From contig JAIXZA010000162.1 of the NCBI GenBank assembly GCA_027489965.1, forward strand, positions 248,001 through 312,000: 64,000 nucleotides of DNA, in the 5' to 3' direction. Shown here piece by piece: positions 11,206 through 41,448 of this stretch. The notes below the pieces were generated by a model. It saw nothing but the letters and a program-made list of their open reading frames with translations, was not told the DNA's origin and ran no database searches. Numbering within the stretch: position 1 is the first letter of the stretch; each line of letters begins with the position of its first letter. This DNA is from Verrucomicrobiaceae bacterium (GTDB taxonomy: Bacteria; Verrucomicrobiota; Verrucomicrobiia; Verrucomicrobiales; Verrucomicrobiaceae). A program made the position numbers and the translations under genes.

Positions 11206-14200
11206 CTAATCCTTCTTCACCGTCTTGCTCTTCGAGGGCTTCAGGCTGCTGAGGTAGGCGACAACGTCCCGAACCTCGCGCGGGGTGAGGATGCCGAGCA
11301 TGGGGGGCATCATGGAGACGGGTGGGGTCTGCATGGTGATTTGGGCGCGGGGGAGTTTCTTCTCCGTGCTGTCGGCGAGGCGGAGAGTAACGGCGGTTTT
11401 GTCTTCTTTGAAAAGGGCTCCGGCGTGGTTACTGCCGTCCTTCATCGTGATAGAGACGAGGCCGTAGCCAGGGACAATCTTCGCCACGGGATTCACGAGT
11501 GACTCCAGCAACTCGGCCTTGGTGCGTTGGCCGCCGATGGTCTTTAAAATGGGGCCGACTTGGCTGCCTTCTTTGGCTTCGACAGTGTGGCAGGCGAGGC
11601 AGTTGGCACCAAGATGATTGGTGACGATTTCCTTGCCGTTGGTGGCATCGCCGCCTTCGATCAAATCATCGCGCGGGGCGGTGGTGCGGCTTTGCTGGTA
11701 GGTGGCGAGTCGCTCGGCGAGTGCGGGGAAAGCGGCGGAGGCTTCGAGGACATCGAGCTTCAGGCTGGGCTCTACCTTGCCGATAGCAAGACGCTGAAGC
11801 CAGGTATCCATCAGGGTGGCAGAAGTCTTGGTGTCGGAGCTGGCGAGCAGCTTCATGGCGGCTTGTTTCTCCTTTAAACTGCCCTGCTCCAAGACGCGTG
11901 AGGCTTCGGTGACGGCGCGGTCTTTTTGGTGAGCAAAGGTCTGCACGAGCGACTCCATGCGCAGCTCGGCGGGCGAGGTTTTAGCCGCGGTGAGTGTGAG
12001 TGTTTGGGCAAAGGCGGCATCGCTGGCGTGCTGCGCGGCCATGAGGCGGAGGGCTCCGACTCGCTGACTGGGCTTGGCTTTGGCATCGGCGATGATGCTG
12101 CGCAAAGCCGGAGCATCGACCTGGAGCGCGAGTTTCACCATGAGTTCGATTCCGGCGGCTTTTTGATCGGGATCGGTGAGCGCGAGAAGGTCGGCAACAC
12201 GCGGCTGAACGACGGCGGCGATGGCTGCGGCATCACGCGATTCGTATTTGCGGGCGACGCCGTCCACGAGGTCAAGTCGCGGTGGTTCGCTGTAGGCGAG
12301 CAGGGCGGTGAAGGCTTCACTTGAACCTGCGAGCGCGGCTTTGAGCAGGCGTTGAGTGTTTTCGATTTTACCAAGGCGGAGATTGGCATTGATGGCTCGT
12401 CGCGTGGTGACTTCGGAGGTGGCTTTGCCATCGAGCAAAGCAGCGAGCGCCGGAAGAGCTTCGGGGATGCCGATGTCGTCGTGGATGGCACGCGCGGCTT
12501 CATCGACAATGGCGCTGTCGGTATCCGCGAGCGCGGGCTGGATGAGTGGAGAATGCTGACGTGCCAGCGCGAGCACGGCGGCGAGACGGATGTTCCGCGT
12601 GCTGTCTGAAAGGCGTTTGGCGAGTGCTTCGGCTTTCAAAGAACCAGCCAAACCCGTGACGACAGCATGACGCAGCCAGGCATCGCCTGCATCCTGAGCG
12701 GCCATGGCCCAAAGAGCGTCTTCAGCACCTGCGAGCTGGAGTTTGCCAGCGGCGATGGCTGCGTAGAAGCGGACGCGTATGTTCTTCGATGCAATGAGAC
12801 TGGTGATGGCTTTGCGGCTGGCCTCGCTGGCTTTTGCGGGAGCATCGCCGAGCACTTTGAGGAGTTGCGTTTGGACTTCAGGATCGGTGTCTGCGAGGTG
12901 CGACTGAAGCTGTGAGTCATCGGTTTGCCCATGACGCAGGCCGATGCCGAGGCCCCAGATGGCGTGGAGTTTGGCGAGCCGTGGGGCTTTGCCATCGTCG
13001 AGAACTTCGGTGAAGACGGTCCATGCTTTGCGGGAAGCGAGTTCGAGCTGCGCAGCGAGACGCACGCGCTGATCGGCATGGGCGAGCAGGATTTGCAGTG
13101 CATCGGGCTCAGTCTTTTTGAAGCCGACACTGAGGAGCTTTTGCGTCTCGGCACGAGCGGGGTTCTTCGTCTCTTCATCGACACGCCAGATGGCACCTTT
13201 TTCATCCAGCGGATAACCGCCCACCCAGTCTGCCATGTAGAGCGCACCATCAGGGCCGAAGCTGAGACCGATGCCCATGATGCCAGCATTGATGACGCGT
13301 GGCCGGCTCATTTCAAAGGCGCTGCCTTTCGGCGTGATGGTGAAGGCTTCCATCTTCCCGGAGGGGAATTGATCGAGAATGAAATGGCCGTGCAGACGAG
13401 GTCCGAGTGCGGTGCCAGGCTCGTGAGCGAAGCCAGCGGGGCCGTTCGAGTAGTTCGCGAGCGGTGGGGTAATGAAGAGCGGGGTAGGCGCATTCGCCAG
13501 AATGCGGTCTGGAGCCTTCGCCCGCAGAATGGCGTCTGCGCCTACGGGAGCCTGCCAGATGCCTTCGCGCATCCAGCGGCTTTGTTCCTTCATGTATTGG
13601 TGGGAGCAGCGCCAGCCGGAGTCGCTCTGCTCGGTGATGAAAACGAAGCGCTCCTTTTCGCCGGGCATGTCGGCATCATTGTCCACGCCGAACATGTTGC
13701 CGAAGTCATCAAAGGCGATCTCCTGGATGTTGCGCAGGCCGTGGGCAAAGACTTCGAAGCCGCTGCCGTCGGGCTCGATGCGCATCACGGCGCCTTCGTG
13801 CGGGTAAAACCAATGTTTGCCTTCCTTGCTCGTCACATTCACGCCTTTGTCGCCAATGCTCCAATAGATGCGGCCATCGAGCCCGAGGCGCGGGCCGTGC
13901 ATGTCATGCCCGGCATAGGCGATGTGCATTCCGAAGCCATGCGCGACGACTTCGCGCACATCGGCGACGCCGTCATCGTCCGTGTCTTTGAGCCTCCAGA
14001 GATCCGGCGCGATGGTGGCATAGACCCAGCCGTCATGATACAGAATGCCCGCCGCGATGCCGGTGACTTCAGTGTTAAAACCTTCCGCGAAGACGGTCAT
14101 CTTGTCTGCGGTGCCATCGCCATCCGTGTCGCGGAGCTGGTAGATGCGCTCGCTGTGCACGGTGAGGTCTTTCCAGTCGATCGAGCCGTCTTTGTTATGG

Positions 14201-14499
14201 TCCTTCAGTCCGCCACGAGGCAGACGCAGCTTACCCGGAGCTAACTCGCGTTTCAGAAACGCCTGCTTCTCTTCCACACTCGTCAAACCCACATCATCTG
14301 CGATCCACATGGGATGCTCGCGAATGTCTAGATCGGCTACCTTGCGCCGAGTGGTCGCCGACACGTAAACGCGACCCTTTTCATCAACGGTGCAGGCAAC
14401 CGGATCAGGCACATTTAAGGCGCCAGACCAGCGATGAAGATTGACCTCAGCCGCAGAGGCCAAGGTCGATATAAGAAGACAGAGCGCAAAGGATCGCAT
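11206..14499 (-). CDS. PVC-type membrane-bound dehydrogenase: beta-propeller, HEAT repeats, cytochrome c
   Basis: A 1097-residue exported protein. The signal peptide is MRSFALCLLISTLASA. Residues 20-400 form a six-bladed propeller of the PVC dehydrogenase/sorbosone-dehydrogenase type (FAHGLRNIQEIAFDDFGNMFGVDNDAD, LSFGPDGALYMADWVGGYP). About residues 420-900 are alanine-rich HEAT-like repeats. The C-terminus is a heme-binding domain with CLACH (Cys967, Cys970, His971), followed by the family tail GILTPREVRDVVAYLSSLKPS. Such proteins are greatly expanded in Planctomycetota and Verrucomicrobiota and are thought to oxidise sugars or alcohols, passing electrons to the heme. The ATG at 14499 gives a clean signal peptide; the longer frame from 14631 does not. 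Its stop lies 15 bases from the convergent Tat protein gene. Confidence 0.9.
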   Translation of the reverse strand: MRSFALCLLISTLASAAEVNLHRWSGALNVPDPVACTVDEKGRVYVSATTRRKVADLDIREHPMWIADDVGLTSVEEKQAFLKRELAPGKLRLPRGGLKDHNKDGSIDWKDLTVHSERIYQLRDTDGDGTADKMTVFAEGFNTEVTGIAAGILYHDGWVYATIAPDLWRLKDTDDDGVADVREVVAHGFGMHIAYAGHDMHGPRLGLDGRIYWSIGDKGVNVTSKEGKHWFYPHEGAVMRIEPDGSGFEVFAHGLRNIQEIAFDDFGNMFGVDNDADMPGEKERFVFITEQSDSGWRCSHQYMKEQSRWMREGIWQAPVGADAILRAKAPDRILANAPTPLFITPPLANYSNGPAGFAHEPGTALGPRLHGHFILDQFPSGKMEAFTITPKGSAFEMSRPRVINAGIMGIGLSFGPDGALYMADWVGGYPLDEKGAIWRVDEETKNPARAETQKLLSVGFKKTEPDALQILLAHADQRVRLAAQLELASRKAWTVFTEVLDDGKAPRLAKLHAIWGLGIGLRHGQTDDSQLQSHLADTDPEVQTQLLKVLGDAPAKASEASRKAITSLIASKNIRVRFYAAIAAGKLQLAGAEDALWAMAAQDAGDAWLRHAVVTGLAGSLKAEALAKRLSDSTRNIRLAAVLALARQHSPLIQPALADTDSAIVDEAARAIHDDIGIPEALPALAALLDGKATSEVTTRRAINANLRLGKIENTQRLLKAALAGSSEAFTALLAYSEPPRLDLVDGVARKYESRDAAAIAAVVQPRVADLLALTDPDQKAAGIELMVKLALQVDAPALRSIIADAKAKPSQRVGALRLMAAQHASDAAFAQTLTLTAAKTSPAELRMESLVQTFAHQKDRAVTEASRVLEQGSLKEKQAAMKLLASSDTKTSATLMDTWLQRLAIGKVEPSLKLDVLEASAAFPALAERLATYQQSRTTAPRDDLIEGGDATNGKEIVTNHLGANCLACHTVEAKEGSQVGPILKTIGGQRTKAELLESLVNPVAKIVPGYGLVSITMKDGSNHAGALFKEDKTAVTLRLADSTEKKLPRAQITMQTPPVSMMPPMLGILTPREVRDVVAYLSSLKPSKSKTVKKD

Positions 14500-14623
14500 G
14501 GGGGGATTATCAAAATGGCGGGGCAACCAAAGATTGCCAGCTTTCATCGGGTTACGTATTTGCCAAGACAGCTTACGCAGCCAAAAAAGGTCAAATACCA
14601 CCATCAAAAATTTCAGACCTGAC

Positions 14624-15544
14624 TCAACCACGCGCTGCCAATGACAGCTCGATGATGCGGACGCAGAGTTCGGGGAACTCGATGCCGAGGGCTCTGGCGG
14701 CTTTGGGGAGGAGACTGCTGCTGGTCATGCCGGGGATGGTGTTGATCTCCAAGACATAGGGTGAGCCATCCGCGCGAAGCATGACATCAACGCGACCATA
14801 GACTTCCGTGCCGCAGCTCTTGAAAGCAGCCATGGCGGCGGCTTGGACTCTCTGGGTGGTTTCAGCATCGAGTTCCGCCGGGCAATGATAGAGCGTTTTA
14901 CCAGTGCCATTCATCCACGGGTATTTGTTGTTCATGTCGTAGAAGCCATCCACTGGCTCAATGTGGATGACGGGCAAAACTTGATCTCCGAGAATACCGA
15001 CGGTGAGTTCTTTGCCTTCGATGAATTCTTCGACCAAGGTCTCCGTGCCGTATTTTTTGGCCAGTTCGATGGCTTTCTGCCATTCTTCTTCTGTACGGCA
15101 GATGTTGACGCCGACGCTGGATCCTTCACGAGGGGGTTTGGAGACAAGAGGAATTGAAATGGCCAAAGGCTCGCTGCCGTCGAGTTTGTAGATTTGTGAA
15201 CGGGGTGTGGGAACACCTGCGGCGATGAATTTTTCTTTGCTTAGCGCTTTATCAAAAGCGATGCGGCTGGTGATGACGCCAGCGCCTGTGTAGCGGATGC
15301 CGCGTGCTTCCAGGATGGCTTGGATCTCGCCATCTTCACCAAAGGTGCCGTGAATGAGATTCATCGCGATGAAGACATCCTCAGGCAGGTCGAACTCGGG
15401 TCCGGTGACATCGACCTCGACGACATCTGCACCTACGGTGCGCAGTGCTTCAGCGACGCTTTCAGCCGTTTTGATGGAGACGTGGCGTTCGTTGCCAGGA
15501 CCGCCTTTGAGCAACGCGATTTTTTTTCCAGTGATGTCGAGCAT
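14624..15544 (-). CDS. ddl: D-alanine--D-alanine ligase
   Basis: A 306-residue ATP-grasp enzyme that joins two D-alanines for peptidoglycan precursors in the cytoplasm. Visible motifs: KIALLKGGPGNERHVSIKT at the N-terminus (first substrate loop), NLIHGTFGEDGEIQAILE, the YTGAGVITSRIAFDK stretch, SKPPREGSSVGV (lid loop), VEEFIEGKELTVGILG and the metal-binding YVLEINTIPGMTSSSLLPKAA. Length and motif order match Ddl. The ATG at 15544 is chosen because the 18 extra residues of the longer frame (from 15598) are not part of the family. It runs in the same direction as the PVC dehydrogenase gene, 124 bases upstream of its start. Confidence 0.95.
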   Translation of the reverse strand: MLDITGKKIALLKGGPGNERHVSIKTAESVAEALRTVGADVVEVDVTGPEFDLPEDVFIAMNLIHGTFGEDGEIQAILEARGIRYTGAGVITSRIAFDKALSKEKFIAAGVPTPRSQIYKLDGSEPLAISIPLVSKPPREGSSVGVNICRTEEEWQKAIELAKKYGTETLVEEFIEGKELTVGILGDQVLPVIHIEPVDGFYDMNNKYPWMNGTGKTLYHCPAELDAETTQRVQAAAMAAFKSCGTEVYGRVDVMLRADGSPYVLEINTIPGMTSSSLLPKAARALGIEFPELCVRIIELSLAARG

Positions 15545-15793: not shown

Positions 15794-17560
15794 ATGCCCA
15801 TTCATAGATCAAGTGACCTGAGAATGAACTTCCTGAGCTTTTTGGCTCTGGTGGTGGGTGTTTGTGGCATTGATGCAGCCGTGCCGATGATGCGCTTAGA
15901 GATCGAGCCCATCTGGGACGGCTTCCCGCTAAAAGTAACTGGCGCGGCAGAGGGTCGTGAGAGTATTCGATTGAGTCGGTTAGATTACCTCTTGTCAAAG
16001 TTGGCACTGAAAAAAGCCGATGGAGCCTGGGTAGAATCGAGAGACTGGTTTGCCTTTTTCAGTTTGGAAAAAGGCCAGTTGCGTACCGAAGCAGACGGAC
16101 TGCCTGCGGAGTCATTTACGGCCATTCGTTTCAAAGTGGGAGTGCCACCAGAAATCAATGTGGCAGATCCAGCGATCTGGCCCGTAGGACACGCGCTGAA
16201 TCCGCAAGTCTGTGGACTGCATTGGGGTTGGCAGGGGGGGTATGTCTTCATGGCTCTAGAAGGCTATGCACCGAAGCAGCAGGCTTTTTCTTTTCATGTC
16301 GCCAATGATCCCAATGTGGCCCTGGTGGAGTTGCCCGTGTCCTTTAGAGGTGGTGGTCCGCTGACGATCCATCTCACTTTAAATGCAGCCCGCTTGCTAA
16401 ATGGAGTGGACTTTGAGAAAGATGGAACGAGCACGCATAGCCGTGTCGGTGATCCACTAGCCACGAAGCTGCGTGCCAACATCGAGAAGGCCTTTCAGGT
16501 GGTGAAAGTCAGTCATGATCTATTTCAACCGTCGGCGGCAACAGCACAAAAGACACCGCTGCCAGCGGCCACAAAGGCTTATCCACTAGCCATTACGGAG
16601 CGCTTTCCCAAAGTGTCTCTACCTCCAGATAACCCACTGACGCGTGAAGGTGTGGAACTGGGAGAGATCTTATTTCATGACAAGCGGCTCAGTGTCAATA
16701 ACACACAATCCTGCACTAGTTGCCATGATCAAAGTCATGCCTTCAGTGATCTTCGGCGCTTCAGTCTAGGAGCTGAAGGGCAGGTGGGTAAGCGCCAGGC
16801 GATGCCGCTCTTTAATCTAGCGTGGGCTCAGGGCTTCTTCTGGGATGGCCGCGCTAAGACATTGCGGGAACAGGTGCTGATGCCAATTCAGGACGCACAT
16901 GAGATGAATGAAACGCTAGAGCGTGTGGCAGAGAAGATAAAGGCAGATGCTGATATGCTTGGTTTATTCGCAAAGGCCTTTGGTTCTAAGGAGATCACTA
17001 CAGAGCGGATGGCTAAAGCTTTGGAGCAGTATTTGTTAACGCTGATCTCTCAGGACTCACGCTTTGACCGCGCAGTGCGTAAGCTGGCTGATCTCAGTGA
17101 GCAGGAAAAGCGAGGCTTGCAGCTCTTTGTGACCGAGCATGATCCCAAACGCGGCCTGATGGGTGCGGACTGTTTTCATTGCCACGGCGGTACGCTTTTT
17201 ACCGATCATCAGTATCGCGATAATGGATTGAAATTGACGCCTGATGAGCTTGGGCGCATGGCGGTTACAGGACAGGTGACAGATCGCGGCAAGTTTAAGA
17301 CGCCATCGCTCAGGAACATTGCCGTCACAGCGCCTTACATGCATGACGGACGTTTTTCCACTCTCGAAGAAGTGGTGGCCCACTATAGCGGTTCGATGGA
17401 AAAACGTGACACGCTAGACCCCAATTTGGCCAAGCATCCCGCGGCTGGTATTCAACTCAGCGCCGAGGACCAGCAGGCTCTGATTGCCTTTCTCAAAACA
17501 CTCACAGATGAAGCATTCATCCAGCCTGCCAAATCAGATCAACTTGTAAAACAACCATGA
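15794..17560 (+). CDS. MbnP-like / MbnH-like (MauG-type di-heme peroxidase) fusion protein
   Basis: A 588-residue exported protein with two domains. After a signal peptide (NFLSFLALVVGVCGIDA), residues 30-225 look like MbnP: an early LEIEPIWDGFPLKV, SRLDYLLSKLAL, a GVPPEINV stretch and the hallmark LHWGWQGGYVFMALEGY (His143, Trp144, Trp146). Residues 265-575 are a bacterial cytochrome c peroxidase/MauG-family domain with two c-hemes, CTSCH (Cys307-His311) and CFHCH (Cys460-His464), and the motif APYMHDGRFSTLEEVVAHYSG. Tyr531 sits where classical peroxidases have the axial Met and MauG/MbnH have Tyr. In methanobactin-type operons, MbnH uses peroxide to convert an MbnP Trp to kynurenine, creating a copper site; here substrate and enzyme would be one chain. 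The stop overlaps the next gene by 4 bases. An alternative start is 15824. Confidence 0.85.
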   Translation: MPIHRSSDLRMNFLSFLALVVGVCGIDAAVPMMRLEIEPIWDGFPLKVTGAAEGRESIRLSRLDYLLSKLALKKADGAWVESRDWFAFFSLEKGQLRTEADGLPAESFTAIRFKVGVPPEINVADPAIWPVGHALNPQVCGLHWGWQGGYVFMALEGYAPKQQAFSFHVANDPNVALVELPVSFRGGGPLTIHLTLNAARLLNGVDFEKDGTSTHSRVGDPLATKLRANIEKAFQVVKVSHDLFQPSAATAQKTPLPAATKAYPLAITERFPKVSLPPDNPLTREGVELGEILFHDKRLSVNNTQSCTSCHDQSHAFSDLRRFSLGAEGQVGKRQAMPLFNLAWAQGFFWDGRAKTLREQVLMPIQDAHEMNETLERVAEKIKADADMLGLFAKAFGSKEITTERMAKALEQYLLTLISQDSRFDRAVRKLADLSEQEKRGLQLFVTEHDPKRGLMGADCFHCHGGTLFTDHQYRDNGLKLTPDELGRMAVTGQVTDRGKFKTPSLRNIAVTAPYMHDGRFSTLEEVVAHYSGSMEKRDTLDPNLAKHPAAGIQLSAEDQQALIAFLKTLTDEAFIQPAKSDQLVKQP

Positions 17561-20500
17561 AAAAAACCGTAGCTTTACTGCTCTCTCTTAGCTTCAGCGT
17601 CCTAGCTGGGAATGATGACCATGGCATCAGTGATGTACTGTCTGCTGAAGCCCAGGCCTTTGCCCCTGCGTTTATTGTCAAGACAGGCCCTGCGCCGACA
17701 GCGGCGACCCGCAGCACGGTAGGGCAATGGGGCTCTGTGATTAACTGGACACCACATTTACCAGTTACAGCAGCCACGCTCCCAGATGGCAGACTGCTTA
17801 CCTTTTCATCCAATCAACGAACCACTTTCCCTGGTGGCGTCGAGTTCACCTTTGCGGCTGTTTGGAATCCTGCAACGGGTGCCTTCACCGAGATCAATAA
17901 CACACGCCATGACATGTTTTGCGGTGGAACAGCGATGCTTCCAGATGGCCGTGTCGTGATCAATGGCGGGCGTAACACAACGCGGCTGAGCAGCATCTTT
18001 GATTGGCGTACGAACCAATGGTCGGCTATGCCAAACATGAATGATCCACGCTGGTATAACACCACGGTGGCTTTGACTGATGGCAGTGTTTTTACCGTTA
18101 CTGGCGATGGAGGCACGAATACCGCGGAGCGTTGGGTAGAAGCCGCAGGTTGGGGGCGACTGAGCAATATCAACTGGGCTTCTGTCGTGGCTCAACCAGG
18201 GTATCTGACACGCTGGCACCCCTTCATTTTGGTGGCGCCTGACAATCGTTTATTCCATGGCGGTCCGACAGATGAGATGAATTGGATCACCACGATAGGC
18301 AATGGCAGCCTGACCTCTGCCAATGCCAATGTGCCAGGAGCGCACTACCCAAAGGAAGGCACTTTTGCGATGTATAACGAAGGCCGTATTCTTGTGATGG
18401 GTGGTTCAGCCAATACGAATCCCAATCCGTCAGATGGTAGCACGGGAACAAGCACCAACTTGGCCTTCACCATTGATATTCGCGGATCGCAGCCAGTCGT
18501 TGCGCCGACATCGTCGATGAAATTTGTTCGGCAATTTTGCAACAGCGTCATTTTACCAAACGGTGAAGTCATGGTCATCGGCGGTAATAGCAGTGGGCTC
18601 AAGTTTAATGACACGGGATCCATTTTAGCGCCAGAAATCTGGAATCCAACCACAGGTCAATGGCGTGAAGTCACCGACATGGCTATCCCTCGCAATTATC
18701 ACTCGTTGGCCCTGCTACTCCCCGATGGCCGCGTGTGGTCAGGTGGCAGTGGTTTGTCTGGAAACGCTGCTGATCATCGTGATGCGCAGCTCTATACACC
18801 ACCGATGCTATTTAATGCCGATGGTAGCAATGCTACTCGCCCAACCTTGAGCAATAGCCCAAGCAGCATTGGCCCAGGTCAGGTTTTCAACATTCAAGGC
18901 AGCAGCGGAATCACCCGCTTCACCTTTATCAAGATGTCCTCACAGACACATTCAGTGAATACTGACCTGCGTTTCCTCGAACTGCCGTTTACCAGCCCGA
19001 GTACGGGTAATTATCAAATCACCGCCCATAGCAATATCAGTGTGATGACCCCTGGCTACTGGATGCTTTTTGGACTGAACGCTCAAGGGGCCTACTCGGT
19101 GGCTAGCATCATTCAAGTGGCTACAACCAATGTGCCAACACTTGGCAATCCAGGACCACAGACAACAGCGAGCACAAAGACGGCATCGCTCCAGCTCGTC
19201 GCCGCAGGCACCGGCACGCTGACCTACAGTGCCACGGGTTTGCCTCCAGGATTGAGCATCAATGCGACGACGGGACTCATCAGTGGCACAGTGACCGCGG
19301 CACCAGCTGTCTTCAATGTCGTAGCAAGGGTTCAGTCGTCCCTTGGCTTTAACACCAGTGTTCCCTTCACTTGGACAATCGTCCCATCCACGCTGGGCTC
19401 AGGCACGATCTTACGGGAATGGTGGCTGAACATTGGTAGCGGCATGACGGTTCAAGATCTGACCAACAACACAGCATATCCCAACAATCCTAGTGGGTCC
19501 GATCAACCGACGAGCTTCGAGGCTCCGTCGAATTGGGCTGATAACTATGGCACGAGAATGCGTGGATGGGTTCACGCAGCTGTCACAGGGCAGTATCGCT
19601 TTTGGATCGCCAGTGATGACAATGGACGCCTATTGTTGAGCACGAATGATAATCCAGCCAATGCCGGGCAAATTGCCTCAGTGGGTGATTGGACAGATTC
19701 TCGGCAGTGGACGAAATTTGCCACGCAGGCCTCCGCACTCATCACTCTGCAAGCAGGCCAGCGTTACTACATCGAAGCGCTGATGAAAGAAGGGGCTGGC
19801 GGTGATAATCTTGCTATTGGCTGGCAACCGCCGGGAGCTTCGGGTCCCGAAGTGATTCCTGGCATCAATTTATCTCCATGGTCCCCCAATCGTGCTCCTA
19901 TTGTGACCAATCCTGGAGCTCGCAGTCATGTCGTCGGCACGGCAATCACGCTAGCGATTCAAGCCAGCGATGTGGATGGGGATACACTTTCCTATTCTGC
20001 GACCGGTCTGCCGAATGGAATGACCATTCAACCCTCGAGCGGCGTCATCAACGGCACACCGAGCGCTGTCGGAACTTTTAACGTGGTGGTCAGCGTGACA
20101 GACAACAAAGGCTCTCCAAGCACAGCGGGCTTCACGTGGACCATCGTGCAGACTTTGGTCCTGAGCAAGCCACTGACAACCGCTAGACCCATCAATACAG
20201 CGGTCTCATATACGGCCACGAGTACTGGTGGCGTGAATACGCGTTATCGCTGGAATTTTGGTGATGGAAGTGCAACGACCTCTTACAGTGCTAACCCTAC
20301 GGCTTCTCGTAGTTATGTGGCTCCAGGTCGTTATCTGGTGACTCTGGATGCTACAGACGATTCTGCCATCGTCCGCAGTGTGACGTTTTATCAAGTCATT
20401 CATGCTCCTCTTACAACTCGCAAACCTACGGTCTCTTCAAACATTGTTTTCGAAGATCTCGCCACCGGTAACGATCGCATCTGGGTGGTCAATCAAGATG

Positions 20501-23500
20501 CCGATACCGTCACGGTCTTTGATGCTGTGACTCGGGCTAAACTGGTCGAAACCACGGTCGGCACAGGTCCACGTAATATTGCCATCGCACCGGATGGTCG
20601 GGCGTGGGTAACCAATGTGGAATCCTCCACCATTAGCATTCTCAATGGCACCAGCTATGCCGTTGCTGCCACTGTGACTTTGCCAAGAGGATCGCGGCCC
20701 TTTGGCATCGCCTTTGATCCGGTCGGCACAGCCGCTTTCGTAGCACTTGAGGGCAGCGGACAATTGCTGAAACTCAATCCAATCACCGGAACCCAAATCA
20801 GCAGCCTCAGTGTGGGTCAACATGCACGGCATGTATCGGTCAATGCGGACGGCACGCGTGTTTACGTGAGTCGCTTTATCTCACCAGCACTGCCAGGTGA
20901 GAACACCCTAACGCCTGACACCACAGGTCGAGGTGGTGAGGTTGTTGTCGTTGCTGGTAGCACGCTGGCCTTTGAGAGGATGATCATTCTCCAACATAGC
21001 GAACTCTCTGATTCGCAGAACTCGGCGCGAGGCATCCCCAATTATCTGGGTGCAACAGCTTTGTCTCCAGACGGCCTTTCGGCCTGGGTGCCATCTAAAC
21101 AAGATAACATCAAACGCGGAACAGCGCGCAATGGCGTCGGCCTCAATCATGATCAAACGCTGCGTGCGATCAGCAGTCGCATCAATCTGACCACCCAGAC
21201 GGAAGATTATGCGGGTCGGGTGGACTATGACAATGCAGGCATGCCAAGCGCAGCTATCTATGATCCCTGGGGTGGCTATGTCTTTGTAGCTCTGGAGAGC
21301 AGTCGTGCCGTGGCGGTGATTGATGCTTGGAATAAAGAGATCATTGCTCGCTTCGATGTGGGACGTGCTCCTCAGGGCTTAGCCATCTCGCCAGATGGAC
21401 TGACTCTGTTTGTCCACAACTTCATGGATCGCAGCGTCGGCGTCTTTAATGTTTCAAGTATTGTTTCAGGTGGTAATGCGCAGCCCATTACCGTGGCTAC
21501 ATTGGCCAGCGTGCAGACTGAAAAACTCACTGCAACGGTGTTAAAAGGAAAACAGTTATTCTATGATGCATTAGATGTCCGAGTGGCTCTTCAGGAATAC
21601 ATGTCTTGCGCTTCTTGTCACAATGATGGCGGCCAGGATGGGCGGGTGTGGGATCTAACTGGTTTTGGTGAAGGATTGAGAAATACGATCACACTGCGTG
21701 GTCACGGGAATCATGGGATGCTGCATTGGACGGGTAACTTTGATGAAGTGCATGACTTTGAAGGACAAATTCGCACACTCGCGGGTGGCACCGGTTTGAT
21801 GACCGATACCCAGTTCAATACAGGCACCCGCAGGCAACCACTCGGAGATCCAAAGGCTGGTGTCAGTGTAGATCTAGATGCTCTGGCTGCCTATGTCAGA
21901 TCACTGACCGTTGAATCACGCAGCCCTTTCCGAAACACCGATGGCACACTGACAGCGGCGGCGGTTTCAGGAGAGCTAGTCTTCCGTCAGCAAAACTGCG
22001 CTAGCTGCCATAGCGGCACCAACTTCACAAATAGTGCCCTTAATGTCTTCCGTAATATTGGCACCATCAAGCCGATCAGCGGTAAGCGTTTGAATGGAAC
22101 ACTCACAGGCTTTGATGTTCCAACTTTGCGTGGTCTGTGGGCGACAGGTCCGTATCTGCATGATGGATCAGTCGCCACGCTTTCAGCCGTAGTCTTAGCG
22201 CATCAAGGCACGGCGATTCCTACCGCCGATCTTAATAATCTTGTGGCCTATCTTCAACAGATTGATGATGTTCCCGCCACTGCACCGCTGCCAGTCACGG
22301 TGCAGATTAGCACGACTGCGGCTGCTCCGGTTTCAGCTGCCTTTAATGTCAACGCAACCTTTAGCCATCCAGTGACTGGATTTGTCCTCAGTGATATCAG
22401 TCTCAGCGGTGGTAGTGTCAGTGCGCTAAATGGTTCTGGTAGCAGTTACACTTTCACCGTCACTCCTACCGCAAACGTGGCCATCAGTCTTGATGCAAAC
22501 GTGGTTCAGGATGCGGCAAGTCTGGGCAACCAAGCCTCAAATACATTAAATCTCTCCTACAGTGCACCTGTTAATCCATCGGCTCTTGTGGGGCAGGACA
22601 TTGGTGCACCTTCCCTCGCAGGATCAACGACGTTTGACTCAGCTACTGGGACCTACACCTTGACCGGATCAGGCGCAGAGATTTTCTTTGATCATGACGA
22701 CTTCCAATACGCTCTAACAACACTCACAGGCGATGGCGAAATCAGGGCTCGTGTGCGCAGTCTCAGCAATACCAATCCTTGGGCCAAAGCAGGCGTCATG
22801 ATCCGTGAATCCAGCGCCACCGGATCACGTCATGCTCTTACCTGCATCACACCGCCCTCAGCGGGCAATGGTTTTGCGATGATTAGTCGCGCCGCGCTGA
22901 ATGGTGCCTCTGACTTCGTTGGTGGATCTGCCGTGAATGCTTCTCCTAATAACTGGGTCAGACTTGTCAGAGTGGGCAACGTGCTCACCAGCTTCACATC
23001 AGCCAACGGAACCGCCTGGACTCAGCTTGGAACGGTCACTTTGAGTGGTTTGACTAATCAAGTGCTTATCGGACTGGCTCTGAGCTCAACAGACGATAGT
23101 TTGTTAGCCGAAGGCGTCTTTGACAATGTGCAGATTACTGGCAGCACTGGAGGCATTGCCCCGACGTCGAGACTGACTTCCACCTCAGCTATCGAAGCAG
23201 GTGCGTTCAATGTGAGAACTCAATTTTCTCAAACGGTAACTGGATTAACCCTGTCTGACTTTACCGTGACGAATGGAACCGCCTCCAATCTCACAGGTTC
23301 AGGTGCCATCTACAATGTCACGATTACGCCTTTAGCCGCTGGTGCCGTAACCATTCGTTTGCCTGCCGCTGCTGTTGTGAATACAGCCAATGTGGCCAGC
23401 AGTGCCTCTAACACTTTAAGTGTGACCTTCTCACCTCCTGTCAACGTGGCTCTTGCGGGCCAAGATGTCGGCAATGTTCAGCTAACTGGCAGCACCGTCT

Positions 23501-26235
23501 TTAACAGCACCACTGGCACTTATACTCTGCAAGGAGCCGGTGCGGAGATCTTCTTCAATGCCGATGGATTCCAATACGCTCTGACTCAACTCACCGGCGA
23601 TGGCGAAATTCGTGCGCGTGTCACCAGTCAGACCAATTCCAATCCCTGGGCCAAGGCGGGGGTTATGTTCCGAGAGAACCTCAGCGCAGGCTCACGCCAT
23701 GCAACGGTCTTTACCACACCAGTCACTGCCGCAAACGGGTTTGGTGTTGTCTGGCGTCCGACAGCCAATGGCGCCTCCAATTATGCTGGCGGACCAGTCG
23801 TGAATGCGGCTCCCAATAACTGGGTCCGCCTTGTTCGTGCTGGGAATGTGGTCACCGCTTTCTCGTCCACAAATGGCAATGCCTGGACCACCATCAGCAC
23901 TGCCACTTTGACCAATCTGTCCTCGTCGCTGTATGTAGGTCTGGTCGTCACCTCAGCCACGGCTACACAGTTGAGCACGGCGACTTTTGACAATGTGCAG
24001 ATCGTCGGTTCACTCACGGCGGTTGCGCCAGCTGTGACGCTTTCTTCTTCGAGTGCTGTCGAAAGTGGAGCCTTCACGGTGCAGACGCGGTTCACACAAG
24101 CGGTCACGGGACTCGCTCCTTCCGATTTCAATGTGACCAATGGCAATGCCTCAAATCTGACTGGTTCAGGAAACGCTTATGCCATCACGATCACACCTAC
24201 ACTTGCAGGAAATGTCACCGTTTCCTTGCCCGCCGCGGCGGCTGTGAATGCAGGAAATGTCGCTAGCTTGGCCTCCAACTCGCTAACGGTCGCCTTTACC
24301 CCGCCTGCCGCCGTGACATTGACAGGTCGAGACATCGGTACTGTTGGGGTTGCAGGTAATACAAGTCTGAATACCACCAACGGCACGTACACGGTTCGTG
24401 GAGCAGGTGAAGAGATCTTCTTCTCCGAAGACAGCTTCCATTTTGCAGCAGCACAACTGACTGGTGATGGAGAAATCCGCGCCCGAGTCACAGGTCTAAC
24501 AAACACCGGTGATTGGGCTAAAGCAGGCGTCATGTTCCGTGAAAATCTTAACGCCGGTTCTCGGCACGCCATGTTCTGCTCCATGCCTGCTGCCTCAGGC
24601 TTTGGCACGGGGCTTGTCTGGCGTCCGACTGCAAATGCTGCTGCCGCATTTCAATTCGGCCCATCACTGAATCCAGCTCCAAATAATTGGTTACGTCTGG
24701 TTCGTGTCGGCAATGTCATTTCTTCGTTTGCCTCCTCCAACGGCACCACTTGGACGAGCATTCAGTCGATCACTTTCACAGCTTTGCCATCCACGCTGTA
24801 TGTTGGTCTGGCAGTCACCGCAACAGACCCGCAGACACTGGCTGCAGGTACTTTTGATAACGTGCAGATTGTCGGCATCACTACTGCGGGCTCCATGCCG
24901 GCTATTCCTGTCAGTGGTGGAGGCACCGTGACTGGCGGTGGCGTCGGTTACAGTCAGATAGCTGATACTGATTTTGATGGGGATGATGTGAATGACCTCA
25001 TCGAATACGCCCTCGGAAGCAATGTTGCCTACGATGGTGGCTGGTGGCTTACCACGATGGCTGGTGGTCGTGTCGATGCTCATTTGACTTACCTAGATTC
25101 CGTTACTGACGTGACCTTCAACTTGGAAACTTCATCCGACTTAGTGAACTGGGTGCCACTTGCGCTTGCCTCAACGGTCAGTGATTTAGGTGGTGGCATA
25201 GTCCAGCGAACTTGGTCAGGCATCACTGGCTTAAACGGTCAAAGCGTGCAACGTGGTTTGCTTCGATTACGAGTGACTCACAACAACGGGCTTACAGCCG
25301 CCAGCGCACCTCAGGGTTGGCAGCGGTTTAATCTTGACGTTGGTACACAATCGGTTGGCGTCAGCCTACTCAATGCACCGCTCTTTTCAGGCATCGTCAC
25401 GGCCCGCACCGCCGCTGATCAAGTTCAAATGGCATCTGTCGAGGCACTCTCTATTGACCCTGCTGCCAGCTACTACCTGGAAGTGCGTGATGGAGCACAG
25501 GCAGGTCACCGCTACGAAATCAGCAGTATCAATGGTTCTGTCGCCACCCTGAATCTGACCTCTGCCAATTCCACTCAGGCAGCGCTTCCAGAAGATATCA
25601 TTGGAGCCCGTATCTTTGTACGGCCGCATATGACTCTCGGCCAAATCTTCCCCAAAGCCACAATGACAGGCAGCACGCGCAGCAGCGGAGCCGATCAGGT
25701 GCTTTTCCACAATGGCACGGGCTGGGAAACGTACTGGTTGAATCAAACCGCTACAAGACAACAATGGGTGCTTACTGGAGATGCCACACTGGCCTCTCGT
25801 GACAACCAAATCATTTCTCCAGGAACGGGAGTGATGGCAAAGATTCTCAGCCTGCCAAAATCCATGACCTTAACGGGTTATGCGCGTCTGAATCCCTTCC
25901 GCCGCCTCCTAAAAGCGGGGCATAATTTCTTGGCTCTGCCGCGTCCTGTCGATGCCACACCGTTGCAATTGGACCTCACCACCGAAGTTGGATTCATTCC
26001 CTCCACCCGCCTAACCACTGCCGACCAGCTACAGCTATGGACGGGCGACAGCCAAGTTGGTGCAACCGCCTACACCACCTATTGGCTTCGTGGATCTGCG
26101 GCCTCAGCCAATTGGGTGCTACAAACCGACGCTAACAATACCAGCGTTAGCGATACCCTGAAACTCCCTGCCAACAAAGCCTTCTTCCTCAAAACAATGC
26201 CAACCAGCACTCCCAATGGCTGGCTTACCGATTAG
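17557..26235 (+). CDS. Giant exported copper radical oxidase with PA14, PKD, propeller and di-heme MauG-like domains
   Basis: A 2892-residue protein with signal peptide MKKTVALLLSLSFSVLAG. Domains by eye: galactose-oxidase Kelch propeller (40-420) plus C-terminal E-set domain (420-525); Ig-like He_PIG (527-615); PA14 (618-775); He_PIG (778-866); PKD (868-955); YVTN-type propeller (958-1330); di-heme cytochrome/MauG-like domain (1335-1580) with two CASCH motifs (Cys1351-His1355, Cys1481-His1485); three Ig-plus-LamG-like units (1583-2443); and a TIGR02597-type tail (2450-2892). Galactose oxidase residues are conserved: Cys122 (MFCGG) and Tyr167 (RWYN) for the cross-linked cofactor, Tyr381-His382 (NYHS) and His465 (THSVNTD) as copper ligands. 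The stacking Trp of galactose oxidase appears absent, as in glyoxal oxidases. It oxidises an alcohol or aldehyde to make peroxide, by inference. It overlaps the upstream fusion gene (ATGA). Confidence 0.88.
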   Translation: MKKTVALLLSLSFSVLAGNDDHGISDVLSAEAQAFAPAFIVKTGPAPTAATRSTVGQWGSVINWTPHLPVTAATLPDGRLLTFSSNQRTTFPGGVEFTFAAVWNPATGAFTEINNTRHDMFCGGTAMLPDGRVVINGGRNTTRLSSIFDWRTNQWSAMPNMNDPRWYNTTVALTDGSVFTVTGDGGTNTAERWVEAAGWGRLSNINWASVVAQPGYLTRWHPFILVAPDNRLFHGGPTDEMNWITTIGNGSLTSANANVPGAHYPKEGTFAMYNEGRILVMGGSANTNPNPSDGSTGTSTNLAFTIDIRGSQPVVAPTSSMKFVRQFCNSVILPNGEVMVIGGNSSGLKFNDTGSILAPEIWNPTTGQWREVTDMAIPRNYHSLALLLPDGRVWSGGSGLSGNAADHRDAQLYTPPMLFNADGSNATRPTLSNSPSSIGPGQVFNIQGSSGITRFTFIKMSSQTHSVNTDLRFLELPFTSPSTGNYQITAHSNISVMTPGYWMLFGLNAQGAYSVASIIQVATTNVPTLGNPGPQTTASTKTASLQLVAAGTGTLTYSATGLPPGLSINATTGLISGTVTAAPAVFNVVARVQSSLGFNTSVPFTWTIVPSTLGSGTILREWWLNIGSGMTVQDLTNNTAYPNNPSGSDQPTSFEAPSNWADNYGTRMRGWVHAAVTGQYRFWIASDDNGRLLLSTNDNPANAGQIASVGDWTDSRQWTKFATQASALITLQAGQRYYIEALMKEGAGGDNLAIGWQPPGASGPEVIPGINLSPWSPNRAPIVTNPGARSHVVGTAITLAIQASDVDGDTLSYSATGLPNGMTIQPSSGVINGTPSAVGTFNVVVSVTDNKGSPSTAGFTWTIVQTLVLSKPLTTARPINTAVSYTATSTGGVNTRYRWNFGDGSATTSYSANPTASRSYVAPGRYLVTLDATDDSAIVRSVTFYQVIHAPLTTRKPTVSSNIVFEDLATGNDRIWVVNQDADTVTVFDAVTRAKLVETTVGTGPRNIAIAPDGRAWVTNVESSTISILNGTSYAVAATVTLPRGSRPFGIAFDPVGTAAFVALEGSGQLLKLNPITGTQISSLSVGQHARHVSVNADGTRVYVSRFISPALPGENTLTPDTTGRGGEVVVVAGSTLAFERMIILQHSELSDSQNSARGIPNYLGATALSPDGLSAWVPSKQDNIKRGTARNGVGLNHDQTLRAISSRINLTTQTEDYAGRVDYDNAGMPSAAIYDPWGGYVFVALESSRAVAVIDAWNKEIIARFDVGRAPQGLAISPDGLTLFVHNFMDRSVGVFNVSSIVSGGNAQPITVATLASVQTEKLTATVLKGKQLFYDALDVRVALQEYMSCASCHNDGGQDGRVWDLTGFGEGLRNTITLRGHGNHGMLHWTGNFDEVHDFEGQIRTLAGGTGLMTDTQFNTGTRRQPLGDPKAGVSVDLDALAAYVRSLTVESRSPFRNTDGTLTAAAVSGELVFRQQNCASCHSGTNFTNSALNVFRNIGTIKPISGKRLNGTLTGFDVPTLRGLWATGPYLHDGSVATLSAVVLAHQGTAIPTADLNNLVAYLQQIDDVPATAPLPVTVQISTTAAAPVSAAFNVNATFSHPVTGFVLSDISLSGGSVSALNGSGSSYTFTVTPTANVAISLDANVVQDAASLGNQASNTLNLSYSAPVNPSALVGQDIGAPSLAGSTTFDSATGTYTLTGSGAEIFFDHDDFQYALTTLTGDGEIRARVRSLSNTNPWAKAGVMIRESSATGSRHALTCITPPSAGNGFAMISRAALNGASDFVGGSAVNASPNNWVRLVRVGNVLTSFTSANGTAWTQLGTVTLSGLTNQVLIGLALSSTDDSLLAEGVFDNVQITGSTGGIAPTSRLTSTSAIEAGAFNVRTQFSQTVTGLTLSDFTVTNGTASNLTGSGAIYNVTITPLAAGAVTIRLPAAAVVNTANVASSASNTLSVTFSPPVNVALAGQDVGNVQLTGSTVFNSTTGTYTLQGAGAEIFFNADGFQYALTQLTGDGEIRARVTSQTNSNPWAKAGVMFRENLSAGSRHATVFTTPVTAANGFGVVWRPTANGASNYAGGPVVNAAPNNWVRLVRAGNVVTAFSSTNGNAWTTISTATLTNLSSSLYVGLVVTSATATQLSTATFDNVQIVGSLTAVAPAVTLSSSSAVESGAFTVQTRFTQAVTGLAPSDFNVTNGNASNLTGSGNAYAITITPTLAGNVTVSLPAAAAVNAGNVASLASNSLTVAFTPPAAVTLTGRDIGTVGVAGNTSLNTTNGTYTVRGAGEEIFFSEDSFHFAAAQLTGDGEIRARVTGLTNTGDWAKAGVMFRENLNAGSRHAMFCSMPAASGFGTGLVWRPTANAAAAFQFGPSLNPAPNNWLRLVRVGNVISSFASSNGTTWTSIQSITFTALPSTLYVGLAVTATDPQTLAAGTFDNVQIVGITTAGSMPAIPVSGGGTVTGGGVGYSQIADTDFDGDDVNDLIEYALGSNVAYDGGWWLTTMAGGRVDAHLTYLDSVTDVTFNLETSSDLVNWVPLALASTVSDLGGGIVQRTWSGITGLNGQSVQRGLLRLRVTHNNGLTAASAPQGWQRFNLDVGTQSVGVSLLNAPLFSGIVTARTAADQVQMASVEALSIDPAASYYLEVRDGAQAGHRYEISSINGSVATLNLTSANSTQAALPEDIIGARIFVRPHMTLGQIFPKATMTGSTRSSGADQVLFHNGTGWETYWLNQTATRQQWVLTGDATLASRDNQIISPGTGVMAKILSLPKSMTLTGYARLNPFRRLLKAGHNFLALPRPVDATPLQLDLTTEVGFIPSTRLTTADQLQLWTGDSQVGATAYTTYWLRGSAASANWVLQTDANNTSVSDTLKLPANKAFFLKTMPTSTPNGWLTD
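22300..24890 (+). repeat. Three tandem Ig-plus-LamG-like coding repeats
   Basis: Within the giant gene, a unit of about 850 bp occurs three times. Each encodes an Ig-like stretch (F..TF..PVTGF.LSDI...G..S.L.GSG..Y) and a domain with TYTL.G.GAEIFF, QLTGDGEIRARV, WAKAGVM.RE, NNWVRLVR.GNV and FDNVQI.G. The LamG-like parts begin near 22580, 23442 and 24313. The copies are clearly diverged, so the expansion is not recent. Confidence 0.85.
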
Positions 26236-34503: not shown

Positions 34504-35901
34504 TTATTTCCAGCCGCCGCCCAGAGCTCGAATCATCTGGACTGTGGCGGTCAGGCGCTGGCCATCCAGCTGGGCCTGGAGGAGGCGTGTGGTGAGTACT
34601 GTTCGGTCGGCATCCACCACCTCAAAGTAGCTGGCCAGTCCTTTGTCATAACGCAGGCGAGCCAGTTTGCTGGTCTCTTGCGAAGCCGCCACCGCAGCAC
34701 TCACCGCAGCACGCTGACGACTATAAGCGTTCACGTCTAGCATGGCGTTTTCCACTTCTCCCAGAGCTGTCAGGATCGATTGGCGATAGGCTGCCACGCT
34801 TTCTTGATACTTGGCCTGGGCACTGCGCATGTTTCCACGCAGGCGACCGCCTTGAAACAAAGGGATGCTGAGTTGTGGGCCGATGTTGGCGGTGCGGCTT
34901 TTCCATTCCAGGAAATCCTCCGCCCCGACGCTTTCTAAGCCACCATTGCCGACGAGGCTGAAGGCTGGATAAAAGTTGGCTTTGGCCACGCCGACGTTGG
35001 CATTGGCCTCGCGCATGGCCTGTTCAGCCGCACGGATGTCTGGCCGACGCTGAAGCAACGTGCTCGGGACCCCGGCGGCCAAGCGAGGCGGACTCGGTAA
35101 ATGGCGATTTTGAGCCAAGCGAAACGAAGACGGAAGCTCGCCACAAAGCACGGCCAGAGCGTTCTCCGCATTGCCACGTTGGCGCTCGATGTTGATCTTG
35201 TCGTTCTTTGCCAATTCCAGCTCGGTGCGTGATCGGGCCACGTCCATCTCATTGGCCAGTCCGCCCTGAAAGCGTGATTGCTGGAGGGACAATGACTCTT
35301 GTCGCAAACCGATGGTTTCCTGCAAAATAGCCTCCTGAGCATCCAGCGAGGCGATTTGAAAAAAGCTGCGTGAGACCTCAGCGGCGACCACGAGGCGCTG
35401 TGCGGCGAGATTGTCCACCGAAGCTGATTCACGGGCTTTGGAGGCTTCCACACTGCGGCGCACCTTACCCCAGAGATCGACCTCATAACTCAGATTTCCG
35501 AAAGCTTGATGACGATCTCGCTCTAGCGGCGGCAGTGGCACACCGGGGGGTAAATTAGCTCCAATACTGTTGGCAGAGAGTTGCTCATACGTGGCTCGAT
35601 TATCCATGCTGAGCTGAGGAAACCATGCCGCGCGATCCACGCCGAGCATGGCCCGCGCTGTGGCTACTCTTGCTTCAGCACTAGCGAGATCCTGATTGTA
35701 TAAAAGCGCTCGATCCACGAGGCCGTTGAGCGTGCTGTTCCGAAACAGTGTCCACCATTGATCTGGAAGAGCTAAGTCTGAGACATCCGCCTGCTGTTTC
35801 CAGCGAGTGGTGAGCTTCATCTCAGGAAGATTAAAGTCAGGACCCACCACACAAGAGGTCAAGGCAAGAGCTGAGAGAGGATAGAAAAATTTGGTGATCA
35901 T
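34504..35901 (-). CDS. TolC/NodT-family outer-membrane efflux lipoprotein
   Basis: A 465-residue outer-membrane factor. It has a lipoprotein signal (MITKFFYPLSALALTSC, lipid-bearing Cys17) and CVVGPDFNLPEM, a start typical of the NodT/OprM group. Two homologous halves of long helices follow, for example RARAMLGVDRAAWFPQLSMDNRATYEQ and ANANVGVAKANFYPAFSLVGNGGLESVG. It would form the trimeric channel through which the ABC exporter encoded just upstream releases its substrate. The ATG at 35901 is preferred, giving a 25-base gap after the adaptor gene. It is the last gene of the TetR-permease-ATPase-adaptor-channel operon. Confidence 0.92.
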   Translation of the reverse strand: MITKFFYPLSALALTSCVVGPDFNLPEMKLTTRWKQQADVSDLALPDQWWTLFRNSTLNGLVDRALLYNQDLASAEARVATARAMLGVDRAAWFPQLSMDNRATYEQLSANSIGANLPPGVPLPPLERDRHQAFGNLSYEVDLWGKVRRSVEASKARESASVDNLAAQRLVVAAEVSRSFFQIASLDAQEAILQETIGLRQESLSLQQSRFQGGLANEMDVARSRTELELAKNDKINIERQRGNAENALAVLCGELPSSFRLAQNRHLPSPPRLAAGVPSTLLQRRPDIRAAEQAMREANANVGVAKANFYPAFSLVGNGGLESVGAEDFLEWKSRTANIGPQLSIPLFQGGRLRGNMRSAQAKYQESVAAYRQSILTALGEVENAMLDVNAYSRQRAAVSAAVAASQETSKLARLRYDKGLASYFEVVDADRTVLTTRLLQAQLDGQRLTATVQMIRALGGGWK

Positions 35902-35926
35902 GGGGAGCTGGGGTGCTTGGTAAGCC

Positions 35927-36958
35927 TCATTTCGTAGAAGAGTCAGCGGCAATGAAGACATCCATCTGCTGGCCTATGAAGAGAGAGGCGGGAGCGGGAT
36001 TCTGCAAACGGTAGATCACCTGAAGCACCCGAGTATCCACACGCTCCGTGGCATCTCCTGTAAGGGATTTTTTCGGAATGACCATGGGCTCAAAGCGGAC
36101 AAAAGTCAGTTGGCTTTTCAGTTCTGCATTGCCACGGACATGGGCCGTAGCTTCAGCCTGACTTTTGATGCGCCAGGCTTCATGCTCATCCACATCAGCG
36201 CGGAGGTGAAGGGTCTGGGTTTGCCCAAGGGTGAGCCAGGCGTTGGAAGAGGTGGCGGAGCTGACGTATTCACCGGGGCGGACGCGCAGCTGAAGCACGG
36301 TGGAATCGAGTGGGGCGGTAATGGTGGACCGCTCTATCTCTACCTGAGTGACGCGTTGTTGTGCTTTGGCGGCTACGACGGCGGCCTTGGCGGAGGCAAC
36401 GCTGCTGATGGCAGAGGCAACGGAGGCTTCTGCTGACTGGCACTTGGCTTGTTGGGTGAGAACGGCCATTTTGCGCTGGGTGCGTTCTTCGTCGGAGATG
36501 ACACGGCTGTCTTTGACGCTTTCAGCGAAGTCGAGGAGGCGTTGCACGTTGGCGAGTTCAGCACTGGCGATCTTGACTTGAGCTGTCGAGATGGTGACTT
36601 GGCTCTGGGCGACTTCGACGGCGGCTTCGGCCTGGGTGATGGCGGCGTTGGCGACGGCGAGTTCCGCTTCAAGCTCACTAGTGCGGAGCTTAAGGAGAGG
36701 CTGGTTCTTTTTTACAGTATCGCCGACGGTGACGAAGACTTGATCGACAACCCCGGCACGGGCAGAGCCGATGCTAATGGGTTCTGAACTGGGCTCGATG
36801 AGGCCGACGGCTGCGACGTTGTGCGCGTAGCTAGGGCGTGGTGGAGCGTTGGGGGGATCGGTCAGCTCACGGTTGGGTTGGGTGCGGACGATGCTGGTCG
36901 TGGCGTAAACGATGCTGCCAATGGCGAGCAGGGGCAGGAGGAGATCACGGATTTTCAT
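35927..36958 (-). CDS. HlyD/DevB-like periplasmic adaptor (membrane fusion protein)
   Basis: A 343-residue adaptor with an N-terminal membrane anchor (IRDLLLPLLAIGSIVYATTSIV). The biotinyl-lipoyl-like half AARAGVVDQVFVTVGDTVKKNQPLLKL-type stretch (around residues 65-95) leads into a coiled-coil hairpin (ELEAELAVANAAITQAEAAVEVAQ to AAVVAAKAQQRVTQVEIERS), then the second lipoyl half TITAPLDSTVLQLRVRPGEYV and a beta-barrel. It matches DevB-type adaptors of ABC exporters. Its start overlaps the ATPase stop by 4 bases. It should bridge the inner-membrane permease and the TolC-like channel. Confidence 0.92.
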   Translation of the reverse strand: MKIRDLLLPLLAIGSIVYATTSIVRTQPNRELTDPPNAPPRPSYAHNVAAVGLIEPSSEPISIGSARAGVVDQVFVTVGDTVKKNQPLLKLRTSELEAELAVANAAITQAEAAVEVAQSQVTISTAQVKIASAELANVQRLLDFAESVKDSRVISDEERTQRKMAVLTQQAKCQSAEASVASAISSVASAKAAVVAAKAQQRVTQVEIERSTITAPLDSTVLQLRVRPGEYVSSATSSNAWLTLGQTQTLHLRADVDEHEAWRIKSQAEATAHVRGNAELKSQLTFVRFEPMVIPKKSLTGDATERVDTRVLQVIYRLQNPAPASLFIGQQMDVFIAADSSTK

Positions 36959-39403: not shown

Positions 39404-39414
39404 AGGGATGATAA

Positions 39415-39475
39415 AGCGAACGAACGTTCGCTATTGATCCATGATTGTCAAAAATAAAAAGAACGAATGTTCGCT
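39415..39475. promoter_or_regulatory. Tandem TetR-1 operators
   Basis: Site 1 (39415-39432) has perfect 7-bp arms AGCGAAC / GTTCGCT around GAAC. Site 2 (39458-39475) has the same right arm GTTCGCT, a degenerate left arm AAAGAAC and spacer GAAT. The centres are 43 bp apart, just upstream of the TetR-1 gene and between it and the end of permease 2. Confidence 0.75.
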
Positions 39476-39494
39476 TTTTAAAAAAAGATAGTGC

Positions 39495-40631: not shown

Positions 40632-40647
40632 GCGTTTAGTCGATTAA

Positions 40648-40660
40648 TGACCGTTGGTCA
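40648..40660. promoter_or_regulatory. TetR-2 operator upstream of permease 2
   Basis: TGACC-GTT-GGTCA, between the TetR-2 stop (40677) and the permease 2 start (40631). It is the same palindrome as the one at the TetR-2 promoter (41434-41448). Confidence 0.75.
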
Positions 40661-40676
40661 ATTTTAGGGTAAAAAA

Positions 40677-41414: not shown

Positions 41415-41433
41415 ATAGTTATCTATTCTTTTT

Positions 41434-41448
41434 TTGACCAACGGTCAA
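41434..41448. promoter_or_regulatory. TetR-2 autoregulatory operator
   Basis: Perfect inverted repeat TTGACC-AAC-GGTCAA, 20 bases upstream of the TetR-2 start codon at 41414. Confidence 0.78.

Follow-up and report, generated by a model that had tools for sequence, protein, structure and literature searches.

Copper radical oxidases need copper loading, self-assembly of their cofactor and one-electron activation: the resting form is an inactive, non-radical Cu(II) state that has to be oxidized by one electron, and horseradish peroxidase is added in assays. In Streptomyces, the copper radical oxidase GlxA reportedly needs the heme peroxidase DtpA for its maturation. GlxA also requires a copper chaperone, Sco (PMC9040799). 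In the fungal AlcOx-Perox tandem (Colletotrichum, Magnaporthe) a heme peroxidase is the activator of the oxidase, and in Colletotrichum the co-secreted peroxidase acts by one-electron oxidation (PMC9770985). Here we describe a two-gene locus in a 64,000-nucleotide stretch of DNA from a Verrucomicrobiaceae bacterium (GenBank assembly GCA_027489965.1, contig JAIXZA010000162.1, positions 248,001–312,000; hereafter the window, whose numbering is used throughout). The second gene (17557–26235, plus strand, as for all features of the locus) is an intact open reading frame for an exported protein of 2892 residues, whose domain matches place a copper radical oxidase and a di-heme domain in one chain. 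The first gene (15794–17560) encodes an exported, 588-residue MbnP-MbnH fusion according to Pfam and NCBIfam, and the two genes overlap by an ATGA (17557–17560).

The individual parts and the fungal oxidase-peroxidase partnership are known; new are the presence of both activities' domains in one chain, the di-heme peroxidase-type domain and the adjacent kynurenine-type copper gene. The fungal pair is encoded by separate genes, has a one-heme class II peroxidase and comes without a copper-supply gene. The Streptomyces system consists of separate proteins as well, with a DyP-type peroxidase and with Sco in place of MbnP, and GlxA is 17–18% alike in structural alignment. An earlier note on this DNA, made from the sequence alone, knew of no described system of such architecture, and our searches likewise found no description of an oxidase/di-heme fusion in the open literature, most subscription papers being outside their coverage.

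The oxidase domain (residues 52–521; 17710–19119) consists of a Kelch propeller and a GO-like E-set domain. A phmmer search against the PDB returned the galactose oxidases of Pseudoarthrobacter siccitolerans (PDB ID 9g43, E = 3.5e-101) and Fusarium (1gof, E = 8e-71, 36% identity), with 36–39% identity across the two. An AlphaFold2 model of the domain (pLDDT 94) superimposes on both structures with a Foldseek TM-score of 0.90. In a residue-wise pairwise alignment, Cys228, Tyr272, Tyr495, His496 and His581 of galactose oxidase correspond to Cys122 (the thioether partner, 17920–17922), Tyr167 (the radical and copper ligand, 18055–18057), Tyr381-His382 (18697–18702) and His465 (18949–18951). These are the residues that the earlier note had proposed for the cofactor and copper positions; all five are present, and the family search places the Kelch part within the copper radical oxidases. 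Cys is found at position 122 in all aligned homologues, Tyr167 and Tyr381-His382 are conserved, and His465 is kept in 48/49 sequences. The same count applies to the cofactor and copper residues as a set, the single gap being an open reading frame in two frames in a metagenome-assembled genome (MAG; L049). The copper residues rule out a plain Kelch protein. With the cross-link pair of CAZy family AA5, the Tyr/His/His ligands and the Kelch and E-set fold in place, the protein has, judged from sequence and model, a complete copper radical oxidase domain, for which the corresponding activity is predicted.

The domain departs from galactose oxidase in several respects. We found no N-terminal galactose-binding-type domain, and the chain has a di-heme module attached. 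The Trp290/Arg330 pair, a key indicator for galactose 6-oxidase activity of the AA5_2 type (PMC11267884), is absent from our alignments: Gly185 and Leu217 occupy these positions here, and most homologues have Asp, Ser or Thr followed by Gly at the first and Val, Ile, Glu or Asn at the second. Because this pair is lost, galactose is an unlikely substrate, and the oxidase domain probably acts on another one. As in an AA5_1 enzyme (PMC13094651), the aromatic residue that stacks on the cofactor may be supplied by another part of the chain.

Downstream of the oxidase, the chain contains a YVTN propeller (residues ∼961–1300; 20437–21456) that resembles the beta subunit of hydrazine synthase in NCBIfam, sequence and fold searches (5c2v_B, Z = 36.5), followed by a di-heme domain (residues 1311–1600; 21487–22356). 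Two heme-binding CASCH motifs, noticed before, are located at residues 1351–1355 (heme 1, 21607–21621) and 1481–1485 (heme 2, 21997–22011), and both are kept in 43/43 homologues. Chance occurrence can be ruled out, with 0.0003 CxxCH motifs expected from the composition of the 2892-residue chain (8 Cys, 38 His). By Pfam, NCBIfam and sequence search the domain is a genuine member of the cytochrome c peroxidase (CCP)/MauG superfamily; fold searches with a model of the YVTN-di-heme module returned propellers only, so that the placement of the di-heme part rests on sequence. It shares with MauG and the bacterial di-heme CCPs the two CxxCH motifs, the inter-heme Trp and a conserved PYxHDG segment. 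In the fusion-type set, which comprises the first 36 sequences of our alignment A1, Trp1391, Glu1397, Asp1400, Glu1402, Gln1404, His1535 and His1549 are invariant (36/36). Trp1391 and Asp1400, which occupy the inter-heme Trp and distal acid positions (21727–21756), lie in the motif HWxxNFDExxDFExQIR, with Asp1400 standing where MauG and CCPs have the distal Glu.

The description of the domain as di-heme MauG-like held with regard to the two hemes and the superfamily, but its strict form is ruled out by the axial position of heme 2. The register there is set by a shared PYxHDG...TL segment. At this position MauG has Tyr294, MbnH a Tyr and CCP a Met; the fusion proteins have neither the Tyr nor the axial Met of bacterial CCPs but His1549 (22201–22203), the predicted sixth ligand of heme 2. 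The earlier note had missed this His, as it had the replacement of Trp290/Arg330 and the three DUF1349-type repeats described below. Exchange of the corresponding Tyr for His in BthA abolishes the near-infrared bis-Fe(IV) feature while H2O2 reduction is kept, and loss of the feature has also been reported for MauG Y294H (PMC6405878). The His ligand and these mutant data together predict a peroxidase or an electron-transfer di-heme rather than a MauG-type modifier.

Which of these two the domain represents bears on the strongest rival to an oxidase-peroxidase pair, in which the di-heme part would be an electron-transfer or small-molecule reductase module of the hydrazine synthase gamma type, placed on varied catalytic propellers of which the oxidase is one. 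In sequence searches, the solved structures closest to the YVTN-di-heme module are those of hydrazine synthase gamma (E = 1.4e-23) and beta (E = 9.1e-23), which have the same order of propeller and di-heme domain, followed by CCPs (a plain YVTN surface protein was set aside). The hydrazine synthase beta-gamma profile NF052342 (hydrazine_BC) also matches, with E = 1e-21 and 76.8 bits, which is far below its curated cut-off of 1250; the similarity is thus weak, there is no alpha subunit here, and the oxidase domain stands in its place. His1549 agrees with the bis-His gamma-II heme of hydrazine synthase (PMC12607021), and related Verrucomicrobiota proteins carry an LVIVD/Big_5 propeller-like part ahead of the YVTN-di-heme module, replacing the oxidase. 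However, the domain keeps the inter-heme Trp and the distal acid that a peroxidase should have, CCP structures match the module at 1e-20, and a module for electron transfer or reduction leaves its co-occurrence with a peroxide-producing oxidase unexplained. We consider this explanation rather unlikely. The LVIVD/Big_5-type proteins belong to a larger Verrucomicrobiota family (L085 (G000:C168), L140–L158), in several members of which the His after PYLHDG is placed in an extended loop with LHG or KHG at its end, as is the case for hydrazine synthase gamma, which has MHG.

The upstream gene product matches MbnP (E = 1.6e-29) and CCP_MauG (E = 1.7e-55) in Pfam and the MbnH family TIGR04039 in NCBIfam (E = 1.6e-73); these matches pass the Pfam cut-offs and miss those of NCBIfam (247.7 of 362.85 bits for MbnH, 34.8 of 140 for MbnP). 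The nearest solved structure is MbnH (PDB ID 6e1c, E = 6.2e-46). The MbnP domain (PF20243; 15890–16432) contains a candidate Cu(I)/kynurenine site formed by His143, Trp144 (in an HWxW motif) and His168, with His215 just past the domain. These four residues are invariant in 51/51 MbnP-MbnH fusions, and Trp146 is found in 49/51, as would be expected of a kynurenine copper site. Sites of this kind are known from the analogous CorA and MopE; in CorA, a functional analogue of MbnP, Cu(I) is held by two His, a water molecule and kynurenine (PMC3912023). The MbnH di-heme domain (16622–17536; NCBIfam and alignments) has CTSCH (residues 307–311) and CFHCH (460–464) motifs, Trp350, and Tyr531 at the position of MauG Tyr294, and both hemes, the Trp and the Tyr are again invariant in all 51 fusions. 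With matches to both families, the conserved Trp and His residues and the MauG-type Tyr, the gene is, by its sequence features, an MbnP-MbnH member. It differs from the MbnP-MbnH, CorA-CorB and MopE-SACCP systems in that a single polypeptide contains both parts and its gene is paired with one for an oxidase.

The coupling was surveyed in 384 genomes of the class, next to a scan of a public genome collection that yielded 38 loci. The oxidase domain occurs in 19 of the 384 genomes, as a fusion in 13 of them, which fall into four family-level groups. A co-occurrence survey had been suggested by the earlier note: an MbnP-MbnH fusion lies directly upstream in all 13 fusion genomes, beside none of seven oxidase-only loci and, within the flanks fetched, beside none of 20 YVTN-di-heme loci lacking the oxidase (Fisher test, uncorrected for relatedness). 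Within the set compared, it is the copper domain, not the YVTN-di-heme module, that MbnP-MbnH accompanies. The two genes overlap by 4 nucleotides (−4 nt) in 17 of 28 homologous pairs. In a phylogenetic tree, oxidase-linked MbnP-MbnH genes cluster apart from those with other partners, the deepest split being weakly supported; five rows marked "oth" fall inside the oxidase-linked group, and most of these are loci with the oxidase cut by a contig end or a frameshift.

The earlier note had raised the possibility that the oxidase feeds peroxide to MbnP-MbnH. This is one option; the association of MbnP-MbnH with the copper domain agrees better with the reverse, a supply of Cu(I) from MbnP-MbnH to the oxidase. 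Taken further, the first option would make the locus a copper-acquisition system, with the oxidase producing H2O2 chiefly for MbnH, which would form the kynurenine in MbnP. MbnH belongs to a peroxide-dependent family, and the conserved pairing of the two genes agrees with such a role, as does the function of CorA-type Cu(I) proteins in copper acquisition (PMC3912023). An MbnP-MbnH query, however, has matches in 78/384 genomes, mostly without such an oxidase, so that the oxidase is not needed as a peroxide source, and a protein of 1,600–3,000 residues would be a costly one. Of the alternatives that we weighed, this one appears the least probable.

The fusion itself is not an assembly artefact joining two genes, since the identical order is found in many independent genomes, including the named isolate Brevifollis gellanilyticus NBRC 108608 (L024/L060). 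Beyond Verrucomicrobiota, MAGs that carry the names Methyloglobulus, Granulosicoccaceae and Trueperaceae have fusions, as does a second genome from the Methyloglobulus family. The 13 fusions of the class survey all share the order oxidase-PKD-YVTN-di-heme, with the PKD undetected by BLAST in two of them, and this order recurs in a few gammaproteobacterial and Trueperaceae MAGs. One could nevertheless view the protein as a modular surface protein on which oxidase and di-heme domain are independent, chemically uncoupled tools sharing a scaffold. In keeping with this, the Ig, PA14, jacalin and DUF1349 spacers are variable and the distance between the catalytic parts varies greatly. Yet both catalytic parts are retained, in the same order, in different phyla and in homologues with as little as about 45% identity, and the distances of the two parts across homologues correlate (rho 0.84). 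We regard uncoupled tools as improbable. At two loci (L035:8953–15702 and L038:2983–10988) the oxidase and di-heme parts are located in two consecutive open reading frames, reflecting gene fission or MAG frameshifts; they were set aside as a sign of separable domains, as the second frames could be frameshift products. The fusion of the methanotroph MAG named Methyloglobulus has a jacalin-like lectin domain, and its gene is followed by one for an 865-residue protein with a GH5 cellulase-type match (L054:14650–17247), hinting at a polysaccharide context.

From the architecture, the cofactor residues, the domain order and the gene pairing, which are all shown by the data above, we infer every chemical step of the following scheme, what its substrate is and which way copper and peroxide flow. 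The two genes would encode an exported copper radical oxidase machine that includes a peroxidase and a copper supplier of its own, a reading to which we give about an even chance. MbnH, using peroxide, would convert a Trp of the fused MbnP part into kynurenine and thereby complete a Cu(I) site. Cu(I) from MbnP would be handed to the oxidase domain, where copper and O2 would build the Cys122-Tyr167 cofactor. The mature domain would oxidize a primary alcohol or an aldehyde, probably on a glycan and probably not free galactose, releasing H2O2 that the di-heme domain of the same chain would reduce. This reduction might drive a one-electron oxidation and so hold the copper site in the active Cu(II)-tyrosyl radical form, comparable to the separate peroxidase of the fungal tandem, or it might remove peroxide at its source. 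A single-chain peroxide relay, as first suggested in the earlier note, is plausible. More tentatively, and with clearly less confidence than in the scheme as a whole, we propose that the oxidase is switched on and then kept active by the di-heme peroxidase of the same polypeptide, by way of a catalytic propeller, a YVTN propeller and a di-heme domain arranged much as in hydrazine synthase, with copper from a self-modifying kynurenine carrier of the same operon.

The genome also encodes cytochrome c assembly genes, which we count in favor of an exported machine with its own peroxidase and copper supplier. Several observations weigh against it. The spacer between oxidase and PKD ranges from about 100 residues, as in L034 and L068, to about 870, and we see no sign of a constant geometry that would allow electron transfer or channelling. 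No second-sphere aromatic (Trp290) was found in the sequence of the oxidase. MbnP-MbnH fusions also adjoin YHYH or glucose/sorbosone dehydrogenase genes and are not dedicated to copper radical oxidases generally. In several Prosthecobacter genomes (L027, L029, L030, L033) there is a second copy of the fusion with no MbnP-MbnH gene beside it, the same genomes having one elsewhere, and the gammaproteobacterial and Trueperaceae fusions lack an adjacent MbnP-MbnH.

In many Verrucomicrobiota, peroxide production, peroxide use and copper supply appear to form one inherited unit. A conserved locus with oxidase, peroxidase and kynurenine-type copper protein would be a concrete system for testing copper loading, cofactor assembly and activation together, and it would offer a candidate partner enzyme to some of the widespread MbnP-MbnH genes, which have been termed "mysterious partners" (PMC3621798). 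The genome that contains the window also holds a second MbnP-MbnH fusion with 50% identity (L086:5456–9832, C15); the gene after it encodes a glucose/sorbosone dehydrogenase that has a CBM96-like part. Other Verrucomicrobiota fusions (L092, L093, L094, L101, L103, L106) adjoin a gene resembling YHYH (PF14240; demonstrated for L101), possibly a further partner with a role related to copper or redox chemistry.

The remaining parts of the 2892-residue protein complete an order, from N to C terminus, of oxidase, He_PIG, PA14, He_PIG, PKD, YVTN propeller, di-heme, Big_12, three DUF1349-type repeats and a C-terminal region unnamed in Pfam; Pfam and NCBIfam matches cover GO-like E-set, Kelch, He_PIG, PA14, PKD, YVTN propeller, CCP_MauG, RoxA-like cytochrome c, Big_12 and DUF1349, including the PA14, PKD, propeller and Ig-like parts read earlier from the translation. 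The chain begins with a Sec-type signal peptide (MKKTVALLLSLSFSVLAG, 17557–17610), and a similar leader is present in most listed homologues. Right after it, a short conserved DDHGxSDxLxAEAxxLAP (17608–17670) precedes the oxidase domain in most fusions. The PA14 domain (residues 638–767; 19468–19857) has a substitute or no counterpart in many homologues. It is followed by a He_PIG Ig domain (780–863; 19894–20145) and by the PKD domain (880–939; 20194–20373), which precedes the propeller in nearly all homologues. Behind the di-heme domain lie a Big_12 Ig-like domain (1580–1667; 22294–22557) and the three DUF1349-type repeats (22597–24696), two stretches of which pass in Pfam and the third of which was seen in the translation. 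Several homologues are without these repeats, which are probably a carbohydrate-binding or spacer part.

The neighbors of the two-gene locus are D-Ala ligase and PNP-type phosphorylase genes, both on the opposite strand, which delimits a unit of two genes. A large DUF7133/HEAT/cytochrome c protein is encoded nearby on the minus strand (11206–14631). Further along the window (34504–41441) we located a cluster resembling an exporter, with an outer membrane efflux protein, membrane-fusion-like and ABC-like proteins and two TetR-like regulators; of these, the efflux protein was the one searched.
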